Below, piece by piece: positions 11,225 through 17,449 of a stretch of 38,506 bases of DNA (position 1 is the first letter of the stretch; every line of letters begins with the position of its first letter). The notes below the pieces were generated by a model, which saw nothing but the letters and a program-made list of their open reading frames with translations, did no database searches and was not told the origin of the DNA. Origin of the DNA: an uncultured Micrococcales bacterium (GTDB taxonomy: Bacteria; Actinomycetota; Actinomycetes; Actinomycetales; Microbacteriaceae). Made by a program: the position numbers and the translations under genes. The stretch covers positions 1 through 38,506 of the forward strand of contig CAIZQQ010000165.1 of assembly GCA_903935175.1 (NCBI GenBank), written 5' to 3'.

Positions 11225-13306
11225 CTAAGCATCCACCTTGTCGGTGTCGAAGTCATCAGCGCTGTCGATTATGAAGTCGCGACGAGGAGCAACATCGTTA
11301 CCCATCAGAAGCTCGAAAACACGCTCGGCGGCCTCTGCGTCTTCGACCCGCACACGCCTCAAGGCGCGCCTGGAGCGATCCATTGTCGTTTCTGCCAACT
11401 GATCGGCATCCATCTCACCCAAGCCCTTATAGCGTTGAATAGGCTCTTGATAGCGCTTGCCCTGTGACTTCAACTTAGCCAGAAGCGACTCAAGCTCCTG
11501 CTGCGAGTAGGTATAAATGGTTTCGTTTGGCTTGGTTCCGGCGTTGATTACTACGACTCGGTGCAGCGGAGGCACGGCCGCATAAACCCGCCCGGCATCG
11601 ACCAAAGGTCTCATGTACCTGAAAAAGAGGGTCAGAAGAAGCGTGCGAATGTGCGCTCCATCGACATCTGCGTCGCTCATCAGAATGACTTTGCCGTACC
11701 GAGCCACATCAAGATCGAACGAACGCCCTGAACCTGCTCCAATAACTTGGATGATCGAAGCGCACTCTGCGTTGCTAAGCATGTCGCTTACCGAGGCCTT
11801 TTGCACGTTCAAAATCTTTCCTCGAATTGGCAGCAGCGCTTGGTATTCGCTGTCACGAGCTAACTTGGCCGTACCAAGAGCAGAGTCACCCTCAACGATA
11901 AAAAGTTCGCTGCCCGCAGTTTCTTGCGTGCGGCAATCAACCAGTTTGGTTGGCAGCGAAGAGGACTCGAGGGCGTTTTTGCGGCGCTGAGTCTCTTTGT
12001 GGGTTCGCGCTGAAATGCGCGACTTCATTTCTGCCACTACCTTTTCTAGCAGCATGGCGGCTTGCGTCTTATCGTCGCGCTTTGAGCTCTCAAGACGCTC
12101 AGTTAGAGCCTTTGCTATGGTGTTTGAAACTATGTTGCGAACCGCTGGGGTTCCTAGAACCTCTTTGGTCTGGCCCTCAAACTGTGGCTCGGCAAGGCGA
12201 ACTGTGACAACAGCGGTAAGGCCGGCGAAAACATCGTCTTTTTCGACCTTGTCGTTACCTGCCTTCAACTTGCGCGAGTTGGCCTCGATTTGAGTTCGAA
12301 GCACTTTGAGTAGCGCCTGTTCGAAGCCGCTTACGTGGGTTCCACCCTTGGGCGTCGAAATGATGTTAACGAAGGACTTCAAAGTGGCGTCATAGCCCGT
12401 CCCCCAACGGAGTGCTACATCAACCTCGCAGTTTCGCTCAACCTCGCGCGATTCCATGTTGCCCTGTTCATTGAGCACGGGTACGGTTTCGGTGAAGGTT
12501 GTTGCGCCGCTCAAGCGCCAAGTGTTCGTTATCGCATTGTCGTTCGCCAAGTAATCGACAAACTCGACAATTCCGCCATCGAACTTGAAGTCGCTAACAA
12601 CGGCTTCACTAGTGCGCTGGTCATTAACTTGAAGTCGTAATCCTGGAACCAGAAAAGCCGTTTGGCGCGCTCGTGACATGAGCTCATCGGTGGCAAAAGA
12701 AGCGTCTTTGATAAAAATCTGAGGGTCGACCCAGTAACGGACTCTTGTTCCGGTAACACTCTTTGCTACCTTGCCCACTACATCGAGTGAGCTGGCATCT
12801 TCAAAAGGCGTGAAGGGGCTGTTTGCTGAGATACCGTTCGAATCATCGAAGCGGCCTGGTTCGCCTCTACGAAACGACATGCGGTGGGTCTTGCCATCAC
12901 GGTCGACTTCTACGTCCAATCGAGCAGAAAGTGCATTCACAACAGAAGCACCGACGCCGTGAAGCCCTCCGGATGCGGCGTATGAACCAGAACCGAACTT
13001 TCCACCTGCGTGGAGTTTTGTGAAAACCACCTCGACACCGCTAAGCCCAGTTTTTGGTTCGATATCGACGGGGATGCCGCGCGCGTGGTCTCGCACCTCT
13101 ACGGACCCATCGGCGTGAAGCTGAATATCGATCGAACTGCCGTGACCGGCAAGCGCTTCGTCTACCGAGTTGTCGATGATCTCCCAAAGACAGTGCATTA
13201 AACCGCGACTGTCGGTAGACCCGATGTACATACCAGGTCGCTTACGAACCGCCTCTAGGCCCTCAAGAACAGAGAGATGTCTGGCGGAGTAATCGGTGTT
13301 GGGCAC
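11225..13306 (-). CDS. parE: DNA topoisomerase IV subunit B
   Basis: 693 aa GHKL/TOPRIM protein; LEAVRKRPGMYIGST, DNSVDEALAGHG, ELFIVEGDSALGTAKLARD, PIRGKILNV, YKGLGEMDADQLAETTMD. Confidence 0.93.
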   Translation of the reverse strand: MPNTDYSARHLSVLEGLEAVRKRPGMYIGSTDSRGLMHCLWEIIDNSVDEALAGHGSSIDIQLHADGSVEVRDHARGIPVDIEPKTGLSGVEVVFTKLHAGGKFGSGSYAASGGLHGVGASVVNALSARLDVEVDRDGKTHRMSFRRGEPGRFDDSNGISANSPFTPFEDASSLDVVGKVAKSVTGTRVRYWVDPQIFIKDASFATDELMSRARQTAFLVPGLRLQVNDQRTSEAVVSDFKFDGGIVEFVDYLANDNAITNTWRLSGATTFTETVPVLNEQGNMESREVERNCEVDVALRWGTGYDATLKSFVNIISTPKGGTHVSGFEQALLKVLRTQIEANSRKLKAGNDKVEKDDVFAGLTAVVTVRLAEPQFEGQTKEVLGTPAVRNIVSNTIAKALTERLESSKRDDKTQAAMLLEKVVAEMKSRISARTHKETQRRKNALESSSLPTKLVDCRTQETAGSELFIVEGDSALGTAKLARDSEYQALLPIRGKILNVQKASVSDMLSNAECASIIQVIGAGSGRSFDLDVARYGKVILMSDADVDGAHIRTLLLTLFFRYMRPLVDAGRVYAAVPPLHRVVVINAGTKPNETIYTYSQQELESLLAKLKSQGKRYQEPIQRYKGLGEMDADQLAETTMDRSRRALRRVRVEDAEAAERVFELLMGNDVAPRRDFIIDSADDFDTDKVDA

Positions 13307-13704: not shown

Positions 13705-14319
13705 CTAGTGATTTGACTCTAGATTCCAAATTTCTTGAACGTAGCGTTCAGCGCAAATTTTTGAATCACTCGCCGTTGTCTCTCCGCCCAAGATTTCGAT
13801 TATGCGATCTAGCCAAAGTGGATTCTTGGCCAGGAATGGCCCGTGAAGCAGTGTGAGAACTAGATTCCCCTCCACGCGGATTGGCTCTAAACTCAGGTCG
13901 CTGTTCAAGTAACCAAGGGCCTCCGAAGGCCAGCCTTCAGCATCGACATTGGCCAGGACAAACTCACTGCGGCGTTCGCGCTTGGATGAGACATCCACGC
14001 CCGCCCAGGCCAGCGCACTGCCAACAACGATGCCGGGAGTCTTTGCCTCAACCATCTGTAAGAGCAAAGCTTGAATTTGCTCATCGTATGGGGCCAGAGA
14101 TTGCATCGCGGCAGCCGAACCATGTCCGATGGTGACAAAGATGCCGGTCTCGCCACTCTTCACCAGACGTGCGAGCTCAATCAACTCAGTTTCATTCGAG
14201 ACGGGCAAAATCTGGCTTGGCTCCCCAATCCACTGCAGGTTCTTTTTCAAGACCATTGAGTTAGCCGAATCTCCGTTTAGGTTGAGCATTTCAGGAAAAA
14301 GCGTGTAGATCGTTTTCAT
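13705..14319 (-). CDS. gatD: GatD-like class I glutamine amidotransferase domain protein, apparently lacking the catalytic Cys
   Basis: IYTLFPEMLNLNGDSANSMVLKKNLQW and LLHGPFLAKNPLWLD match GatD; ATGA overlap with murT. Nucleophile-elbow region reads TPGIVVGSALAWAG. Confidence 0.8.
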   Translation of the reverse strand: MKTIYTLFPEMLNLNGDSANSMVLKKNLQWIGEPSQILPVSNETELIELARLVKSGETGIFVTIGHGSAAAMQSLAPYDEQIQALLLQMVEAKTPGIVVGSALAWAGVDVSSKRERRSEFVLANVDAEGWPSEALGYLNSDLSLEPIRVEGNLVLTLLHGPFLAKNPLWLDRIIEILGGETTASDSKICAERYVQEIWNLESNH

Positions 14320-15587
14320 CGCTCAACCTCCTCGGCGCTCCAAAATCCAAGTGACCGTCTCATACGACGCATGGCGTCAGCGCTGAAAACTACGGTTTTG
14401 TGTCCGTGTTGAGGTTTCGGCATGTCGAAGAATGTCTTTGTGGCCTGCTCGAGATCATCTGTGACCAAACCAAGTGGCACATCGTTGTAATGCAGCACCA
14501 AGGCGGCCTCATAAGCATTGAATCCGGTGCACACATCGACATGCTTCAAGTTTGAATAATCCACTGTCCAAAGCCATGAGGGGTCGTGCACGTCTCGACC
14601 AATAGCAAACAACAGTTGCTCTGGTTCGCCGACGAGATTATCTAGATTCAGCTGCATCGATCCAGGGTTCTGAACCAAGATGAACTCGACATCCTCACCA
14701 TTAATCTGCACCATCTCGCCGCGAGCAAACACAGGCGGCACCTCACGCAATGCCTTGGTAGCAACTTCGAGTTTGAAATCTTCACCAAGAAACGACTTGG
14801 CGCTTTCGAATGCGGCGACTGCATCTAGTGCGAAGTGCACACCACGTGATGGGAGTTCGAATTCGGTGCTCCCCCAAGATCCGCTGATTTCGGCGTTGAT
14901 TCCGTCTAGGCGGCTAACCTCACTCGAAACCTCTGGCCTCGGCAATTCAGGTAGATAGGTTGGGGCATTCTGTAATCCCCTGCCCTGAGTTTTCAGGACC
15001 CTTGATGAAATGCCGAAGAATTTCGGCTCAACAGCTAAACCTTCGTGGGCAATTAGCAACGTGTTCTGGTCATCTGCATTTAGCAAGACACTCCGAGTCG
15101 CGCGCCGCGCCACCAAGGTCAGGTCAGCGCGCACTAACGCTGGGTCGACGAAACGGTCTAATTGGTCTTCCATGACGTTCAAGATTGTCACCTGCAGTGG
15201 CGAAATCTTTCTGGTTAGCTCTTCGGCGTGCGCTTCATCCATTTCGAGAATCGCCACTTGGCCAGCAACCTTGCCTGACCAGGTCGCGCGTTCGATGATC
15301 GTCGAATAAAAGCCCTGAAGAATGTTAGCCGTCGATGGGTTTGTGAAAACTGCCAAACCATGCTCCCGAACGATGTTCACCAACATCTTGGTGGTGGTCG
15401 ACTTTCCGGCAGATCCCGTCACGATTACTAAGCCTTGTGGAAAAGCCCCGAGAACTCGATAGAGGATGCCGGGAGCGAGCTTGCTGAGAATCAGACCAGG
15501 AAGCGCAGACCCGCCGCCCTTGCGAATAAGGCGAATGAGAACGCGCGCGATTCGACCAACCAGCAAAGCGGGCCAGTAACGAATCAC
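14316..15587 (-). CDS. murT: MurT-like Mur ligase (lipid II isoglutaminyl synthase subunit family), divergent
   Basis: VIVTGSAGKSTTTKMLVNIV P-loop, TNPSTANILQG, EMDEAHAEEL, EDQLDRF, C-terminal DUF1727-like AIGRDVHDPSWLWTVDY. Confidence 0.83.
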   Translation of the reverse strand: MIRYWPALLVGRIARVLIRLIRKGGGSALPGLILSKLAPGILYRVLGAFPQGLVIVTGSAGKSTTTKMLVNIVREHGLAVFTNPSTANILQGFYSTIIERATWSGKVAGQVAILEMDEAHAEELTRKISPLQVTILNVMEDQLDRFVDPALVRADLTLVARRATRSVLLNADDQNTLLIAHEGLAVEPKFFGISSRVLKTQGRGLQNAPTYLPELPRPEVSSEVSRLDGINAEISGSWGSTEFELPSRGVHFALDAVAAFESAKSFLGEDFKLEVATKALREVPPVFARGEMVQINGEDVEFILVQNPGSMQLNLDNLVGEPEQLLFAIGRDVHDPSWLWTVDYSNLKHVDVCTGFNAYEAALVLHYNDVPLGLVTDDLEQATKTFFDMPKPQHGHKTVVFSADAMRRMRRSLGFWSAEEVER

Positions 15588-15594
15588 GGTGTGG

Positions 15595-17379
15595 TTAGTT
15601 CTCTAGGAAGTCGCGCAGCATCTGCGAGCGTGAAGGATGACGGAGCTTCGACATAGTCTTGGCTTCAATCTGTCTGATTCGCTCACGTGTGACGCCAAAC
15701 TCTTCTCCGATTTGGTCCAGGGTTTTCTGAACTCCATCGCCCAAACCGAAGCGGCTACGAATGACGCCCGCCTCTCTTGGGTGAAGTGAATCTAGGATGC
15801 GCTCAAGCTCGCGTTGCAACATCGAGTAGCCAACAGCATCAGCCGGAACAACTGCCTCGGTGTCTTCGATCAAGTCACCGAACTCTGAGTCGCCGTCTTC
15901 ACCGAGAGGAGTTGAAAGCGAAATTGGCTCTCGTCCATACTTTTGAACCTCGACCACCTTTTCAGGAGTCATGTCCAGTTCACGAGCAAGTTCTTCAGGA
16001 GTCGGTTCGCGACCTAGGTCTTGCAGCAACTGACGCTGAACGCGTGCAAGTTTGTTGATGACCTCCACCATGTGAACTGGGATGCGGATAGTGCGGGCTT
16101 GATCAGCCATGGCACGAGTAATAGCCTGACGAATCCACCAGGTTGCATAAGTCGAGAACTTGTAACCCTTGGTGTAATCGAATTTCTCAACTGCACGAAT
16201 GAGACCTAGGTTTCCTTCTTGAATTAGGTCAAGAAACTGCATGCCGCGACCGGTGTAACGCTTGGCCAGCGACACAACTAAACGAAGGTTCGCTTCGAGA
16301 AGGTGTGACTTGGCGCGTTGGCCGTCTTTCATGACCCAACGAAGGTCGCGGGTCATCTCTTTCGAGAGCCTCTTCTCAGTTGCGAGCTTCTCTTCAGCAA
16401 ACAATCCAGCTTCGATGCGCTTAGCCAACTCAACCTCAAGCTCGGCATTGAGCAGTGCGACCTTACCGATCTGCTTTAGGTAATCCTTTACCGGGTCTGC
16501 GGTAGCGCCCGAGATGGTGGTGGTTTGAACTGGGATGTCGTCATCATCGGCATGCGAGATAACGAATCCACCGCCGGCCTCAAGAGCTTTTTCTTTTTCT
16601 TTGGCCTCGGTGTCTTCGTGAGTTTCTTCTTCGTGAGCCTCTTCTTCAGCAAGTTCTACGATGTCGACCGCAGCCGCCGCTTCGGCAACGATGTCGACAA
16701 CCTCGAGGTCGTCTTCGTCTTCAAATTCTTCTTCGTCCGTTGCGGCTCCCTTTGGCAGCTTCGCAACTTTGGCAGGCTTTGCCTTAGCCGGTGCAGGCTT
16801 GACAGCTTCGGCTTTCGACGCGAGGGCCTTTTTAGCGGTCGGCTTTTCTGCGGTCTTCTGCACTTCAACCTTTGGAGTTACCGCTTTGGCATCAGCTTTC
16901 TTAGCCTTGGTAGCTGCAGCTGTCGTCTTTGTGGCTAAGGCTTTGGGTGCTGGGGCTTTAGCGACTGGCGTCTTGGCTGGGGCTTTAGCCTTTTTTTCAA
17001 CTTCTACTTTTGCCTTGGCAACCGGGGTTGTCCCTTTGACTGCGGTTGATTTTTTAGCCTGGGCCGCAGGCGTTTTGAGCGTCTTGACGGCGGGTTTTTC
17101 AGCGGCCTTTGCAGCCTTTGGCTTTGCCGAGCCAGCTTTCAATTCGGGCTTCGCTGCAACCAATTTCTTTGCTGGCGACTTCGATGAAGTCGCCTTTGGC
17201 TGAGCGGCTGCCTTTGGTTCAGATTTGGTCTTTGTGGTCTTGACTGCAGGAGTAATGATGTTGCTTTCTGGCTTGGTGTTCACTTCGGTTTGCTGCTTAG
17301 GTTTGCTGGTCTCAGGGTGAAGCATGCGCGAAAAAAGTCCACGCCTCTTGCCGACAGATTCGTCTTTATCTTTGGCCAC
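15595..17379 (-). CDS. sigA: RNA polymerase principal sigma factor (RpoD/SigA)
   Basis: [16 protein letters not shown]...[75 protein letters not shown]...; start placed at GTG 17379 (AKDKDES) with GAAGGG upstream. Confidence 0.95.
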
Positions 17380-17420
17380 TTTGAACCCTTCATTGGTCCG
17401 ATCACTTGGTAATCGGCGAT

Positions 17421-17449
17421 GATCTAGGCAACACAAGGACCCATGTCAA
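17421..17449 (-). promoter_or_regulatory. Predicted sigA promoter
   Basis: Minus strand TTGACA (17449..17444), 17-nt spacer, TAGATC (17426..17421). Confidence 0.55.

Follow-up and report, generated by a model that had tools for sequence, protein, structure and literature searches.

A cysteine-less GatD homologue and its altered MurT partner behind sigA in Microbacteriaceae: a candidate ligase for the group B peptidoglycan bridge

Results

The gatD*/murT* locus

We analyzed a 38,506-nt stretch of DNA from an uncultured Micrococcales bacterium (assembly GCA_903935175.1, contig CAIZQQ010000165.1), referred to here as the window. On its minus strand, the gene for the principal sigma factor, sigA (15595..17436), lies directly upstream of murT* (14316..15587), which encodes a MurT-like Mur ligase of 423 aa. 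Its partner subunit is encoded by the following open reading frame, gatD* (13705..14319, minus strand), a GatD homologue of 204 aa without the nucleophile Cys, and the two genes overlap by ATGA. sigA marks a conserved position, the ligase slot, whose equally conserved far border is a parE/gyrB-type topoisomerase gene (11225..13306, minus strand). An earlier note had described gatD* as an intact gene, coupled to murT, for a GatD homologue that had lost its catalytic cysteine; its coordinates, strand, length and ATGA coupling were all correct.

When a profile of 42 family members was aligned by hhalign with a profile of 14 canonical, Cys-bearing GatD proteins (probability 100, E 1.3e-62), Gly100 of GatD* (codon GGC, 14020..14022, minus strand, read out from the ORF) fell directly beneath the nucleophile Cys (TPGIVVGSA vs. 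VPMLMICGM), bearing out the proposed loss. The active-site His is present as His159 (codon 13843..13845, minus strand) within an HGP motif and is equivalent to His189 of S. aureus GatD, and the sole Cys, Cys189 (codon 13753..13755, minus strand), lies near the C-terminus; both had been read correctly. The note had also called the protein short and its GFENHGGR-type segment unrecognizable. The protein does lack approximately 35 aa in the region of the canonical GlGif and GNN segments, but the profile alignment places a shrunken form of the GYENHSG segment at G136-Y137-L-N139-S.

No Pfam match was found in the window's GatD*, and the NCBIfam GatD model, which is Staphylococcus-specific, gave 20.6 bits against a cut-off of 450. 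An AlphaFold2 model of GatD* made from an input of eight sequences (pLDDT 91.1, pTM 0.89) was compared with known structures by Foldseek, as the note had suggested, and the nine best PDB matches were all GatD chains from S. aureus, S. pyogenes and S. pneumoniae (E 9.8e-10 against 6h5e). By homology and fold, GatD* is a GatD that has the catalytic His and lacks the nucleophile Cys. Against the two nearest relatives, dN/dS was 0.16 and 0.10 for gatD* and 0.11 and 0.05 for murT* (NG86; dS was near saturation in the second comparison), and both genes are under purifying selection.

Distribution of the cysteine loss

The closest named record, a Rhodoluna sp. MAG (L157), encodes a MurT 97% identical and a GatD 92% identical to those of the window, again with Gly at the nucleophile position. 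A homologue is present in 30 of the 34 other genomes of the window's genus, and all 29 that were read are Cys-less at this position; of 58 relatives searched, the 31 that matched all belong to the same genus, and the 30 read were likewise Cys-less. GatD in this genus is fast-evolving and markedly shortened, to ~200 vs. 245 aa. One genome of the genus (L030, G003) encodes a full-length GatD in which Cys is replaced by Gly and His by Asn.

In a first survey, GatD encoded beside MurT was extracted from 161 loci. The nucleophile Cys was found at 0 of 109 Microbacteriaceae loci vs. 52 of 52 loci from other actinobacterial families. In its place, the Microbacteriaceae loci have Gly (62), Ala (22), Ser (21), Asn (3) or Thr (1), and the catalytic His is kept at 86 loci and lost at 23. 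The loss that the note had read from a single gene is thus clade-wide, although the substituting residue is not always Gly. No Cys is conserved among the Cys-less GatD homologues, and 72 of 113 have none at all. A sequencing or gene-calling error, or an alternative Cys acting as the nucleophile, is refuted by these Cys-free proteins, by the same loss at >100 independent loci and, for the window itself, by the same Gly in Rhodoluna sp.; we found nothing in favor of either and consider their probability to be practically nil.

Among 118 near-complete Microbacteriaceae genomes, ~77 carry the main Cys-less pair, 10 a canonical Cys-bearing pair, 8 another Cys-less pair and 23 neither gene, where the main type was assigned partly by profile score and the canonical and other Cys-less classes came from a further targeted sample. 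gatD* and murT* are adjacent wherever they occur, and elsewhere both are missing. The canonical pairs of the 10 genomes are located away from the slot that holds murT* and gatD*, and in the eight other Cys-less genomes, a zinc-ribbon MurT is accompanied by a GatD-like partner without Cys and His. These counts rule out two broader statements, namely that Cys loss is universal in Microbacteriaceae (10 of 118 genomes have canonical pairs) and that MurT*/GatD* is the sole ligase of the family (23 of 118 lack the pair).

Several variant pairs were seen. In class IV (L164-L168, L309, L310), the zinc-ribbon MurT and its GatD-like partner (THNALEVLG) sit in the sigA slot with an adjoining ATP-grasp_ST gene. 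Class V (L169 and L170, from G105 and G166) is another Cys-less MurT/GatD-like pair with a divergent CofE-like gene directly beside it. Two genomes (L087 and L088, from G165 and G198) have a second Cys-less MurT/GatD paralogue away from sigA besides the main pair, and in a highly reduced genome of 927,303 bp (L182, G069), a divergent MurT is still accompanied by a GatD without the Cys, which has Ser at the nucleophile position.

The MurT* partner

MurT* matches PF08245 and PF08353, the latter (the MurT C-terminal domain) with 25.4 bits, above the cut-off of 25, and has PDB matches to MurT (6fqb, 9sq9 and 7q8e). Its P-loop reads GSAGKST (15396..15416, minus strand) instead of the canonical GTNGKT. 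The segment that corresponds to canonical NDxYADGRDxSWLW is IGRDVHDPSWLW (14568..14603, minus strand), in which the ND..ADG part is replaced (IGRDVHDPS) and D335, the equivalent of S. aureus MurT D349, is kept. These changes are fixed in the clade, where GTNGKT has become GS[AS]GKS, KNPAG an NP[SG]S-type motif and ND..ADG a GxD-type motif, while Lys62 of the P-loop, Glu115, Asp335 and Ser337 are kept.

In a maximum-likelihood tree, the main Cys-less MurT proteins form one clade of 100 rows (SH-aLRT 100), all from Microbacteriaceae, a family of soil and water bacteria; the wall type is known for few of the surveyed genomes, and the sampling was without the group B Firmicutes Erysipelothrix and Acetobacterium. 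With midpoint rooting, the sister of this clade is canonical Actinomycetales MurT. Most canonical MurT rows of Microbacteriaceae are scattered near other families and therefore look like later acquisitions. Since the tree has a midpoint root, SH-aLRT support only and some long rows, the single-clade result is all that we draw from it. By this tree, the MurT* clade lost the Cys once, and none of its rows regained it.

The fixation of new residues in the P-loop, KNPAG and ND..ADG motifs indicates that MurT changed together with GatD. This bears on the reading in which GatD* is in decay or left as a structural remnant only, and MurT* depends on it for stability but has gained no new activity. While the shortening and rapid evolution of GatD in the window's genus would agree with decay, the purifying selection on gatD*, the concerted change in MurT and the appearance of new conserved motifs such as GHGS and LNLNGD would not, and the pair is retained in streamlined genomes of 1.3-1.6 Mb and even in the 0.93 Mb genome G069. 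We therefore regard a mere remnant as quite improbable.

The slot behind sigA

The pair lies directly behind sigA in the window and at 60 loci of the MurT* clade with visible upstream sequence. The same position is taken by class IV pairs at 5 of 5 loci, vs. 0 of 10 canonical family pairs and 0 of 24 sister-family loci. In most MurT-less genomes examined, the slot is filled by a CofE-like gene (PF01996, E 3e-13); we observed such a gene downstream of sigA at L264, L271, L274, L276, L278-L283 and L285, all from Microbacteriaceae without MurT/GatD. The CofE-like gene (E < 1e-110) occurs in 17 of the 118 genomes, all of them among the 23 without MurT/GatD, and in none of the ~77 that carry MurT*/GatD* (Fisher p 1.5e-14, which overstates independence because the genomes are related). 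One MurT* genome, G188, has a distant CofE-like homologue elsewhere (E 7.5e-38). Both states of the slot are found within genera g28, g30, g74, g88, g90 and g97, implying repeated exchange. Six of the 118 near-complete genomes yielded no MurT and no ligase of either type. As CofE is a ligase that adds amino acids, MurT*/GatD* and the CofE-like protein look like alternatives for a single amide-forming task.

An alanine-racemase-like gene is located within ~5 kb of the ligase gene in 22 MurT* genomes and 11 CofE-like genomes, often together with another gene whose match is to the C-terminal half of Alr. At L295, L297, L303 and L305-L307, paired genes resembling the N-terminal and C-terminal halves of Alr adjoin a ligase gene of either type; the paired genes possibly encode a split D-diamino-acid racemase. 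At L304 (G074), a gene for diaminobutyrate-2-oxoglutarate transaminase (EctB type; TIGR02407, 4e-181) is situated between sigA and the CofE-like gene. An ATP-grasp_ST gene adjoins the CofE-like gene at most loci read and also adjoins class IV pairs. No racemase or transaminase gene was found near the pair in Rhodoluna. The window's genome has one Alr match, away from the pair, and racemase, transaminase and ATP-grasp_ST genes do not adjoin the pair in the window.

As an indicator of wall type, we also considered the motif of MurE, which proved only partly useful. Nearly all Cys-less genomes have MurE with D[HF]HPR-like motifs. MurE proteins with DDDVH or EDDPY encoded outside the dcw cluster were seen in six genomes (L204-L209; four canonical and two empty or CofE-like), for which a change of wall type is possible. 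Of the 10 genomes with only a canonical Cys-bearing pair, 5 carry a Microbacteriaceae-type MurE.

Discussion

Group B, the wall type of the Microbacteriaceae, is defined by a D-Glu-alpha-CO-NH bond, and such walls have reportedly served as a hallmark in taxonomy since the work of Schleifer and Kandler in 1972. In these walls, the alpha-carboxyl of D-Glu carries the bridge and is the acyl donor, and it is also the group that MurT activates. As the acyl donor, this carboxyl must itself be activated, which calls for MurT chemistry rather than Fem/tRNA chemistry. In the open papers that we searched, no enzyme joining the group B bridge to D-Glu was named, nothing directly tied MurT or GatD to group B peptidoglycan, and there was no account of a Cys-less MurT/GatD. 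The peptidoglycan of R. lacicola is of type B2beta with D-Dab (PMC4156110), and D-Orn, L-Lys or Dab occur in other Microbacteriaceae walls (PMC10757982, PMC10011130); within Microbacterium, walls with L-Lys, D-Orn and Dab alternate (PMC10757982). Genome editing has been reported for R. lacicola (PMC11577799).

Because the carboxyl that MurT activates is the one that carries the group B bridge, we propose for MurT*/GatD* the activity of a D-Glu alpha-carboxyl:amino-acid ligase. We think it fairly likely that it joins a diamino acid, not ammonia, to this carboxyl and so makes the group B bridge, where we infer the complex, the substrate and the product. The C94G and C94S variants of S. aureus GatD abolish lipid II amidation (PMC6113224), which makes glutaminase activity of GatD* very unlikely. 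GatD* would have lost the glutaminase chemistry and kept the fold, the HGP loop that faces MurT and the helix at the C-terminus, and may act as a structural or amine-guiding subunit. MurT* would still bind ATP and, on the D-Glu that occupies position 2 of the peptidoglycan precursor, phosphorylate the alpha-carboxyl, but an amino acid would then supply the attacking nucleophile through its amino group. The most likely amine would be the bridge diamino acid itself, D-diaminobutyrate in Rhodoluna and D-Orn or another elsewhere, and the predicted product is the D-Glu-alpha-CO-NH bond. An active glutaminase would leave the D-Glu alpha-carboxyl capped, in the form of isoglutamine, and thereby prevent the bridge from forming; this may be the reason for the Cys loss. 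Most rows retain two members of the glutaminase triad, GatD His159 and MurT Asp335, and part of the ancestral chemistry could therefore still operate. The earlier note had suggested a retained structural or non-glutaminase role for GatD*; our results support this, and within it they favor a switch to another amine substrate rather than a part that is structural alone.

Synthetase subunits of amidotransferases can often use free NH3, and MurT* retains the P-loop Lys62, Glu115 and Asp335, so that it might still amidate D-Glu with free ammonia or with ammonia from another glutaminase, leaving GatD* as a scaffold only. Such amidation would, however, block the carboxyl on which group B bridges depend; it would also have to be reconciled with the clade-specific changes in the active-site motifs of MurT* and with the exclusive replacement of the pair by a CofE-like amino-acid ligase, next to which racemase and diaminobutyrate transaminase genes are found. 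We judge this explanation unlikely. To a similar degree we doubt that the pair is an amino-acid ligase for some other carboxyl, for instance on a bridge residue, on the residue at position 3 or on a second bridge residue in B1 walls. The two MurT* paralogues of G165 and G198 and the recurrent ATP-grasp_ST gene beside the CofE-like gene and class IV pairs could be understood in this way, but the pair is single-copy in most genomes, and all characterized MurT enzymes act on the D-Glu alpha-carboxyl (PMC6113224, PMC6085368).

Returning to a diamino-acid ligase for the D-Glu alpha-carboxyl, the CofE-like protein would be its replacement in genomes without the pair. We place roughly even confidence in a wider scenario in which the two are interchangeable makers of the group B bridge and the glutaminase was inactivated when the clade arose, because amidation and bridge formation compete for one carboxyl. 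If the 6 ligase-less genomes and the 10 with only a canonical pair have group B walls, another enzyme must exist. The proposal offers concrete candidate genes for the group B bridge, with two solutions that are not homologous but share a single chromosomal slot, and it outlines how an amidotransferase might be recycled as an amino-acid ligase. Throughout a large family, glutamine amidotransferase is probably the wrong annotation for these genes.

The closest known system is the lipid II isoglutaminyl synthase MurT/GatD of S. aureus, S. pneumoniae, S. pyogenes and M. tuberculosis, which has the same operon order and in which both subunits are homologous to those of the window. The window pair resembles it in the GatD fold, the HGP loop and the equivalent of MurT Asp349, and differs in having no nucleophile Cys and, in the window's genus, a shorter GatD. 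MurT* departs from canonical MurT in the loss of the P-loop Asn (GTNGKT to GSAGKS) and in the replacement of ND..ADG and KNPAG. Dead-nucleophile proteins of the amidotransferase fold in general likewise keep a glutaminase fold without the glutaminase residues; unlike in these, the loss in MurT*/GatD* is fixed across one clade of dozens of genera, and the partner has changed too. The proposed counterpart in the sigA slot belongs with CofE, the F420-0:gamma-glutamyl ligase (PF01996), which is unrelated to MurT but is also amide-forming and adds an amino acid. The Microbacteriaceae CofE-like proteins score 34.9 bits against the CofE equivalog, far under its cut-off of 180.65, and thus appear to form a separate subfamily.
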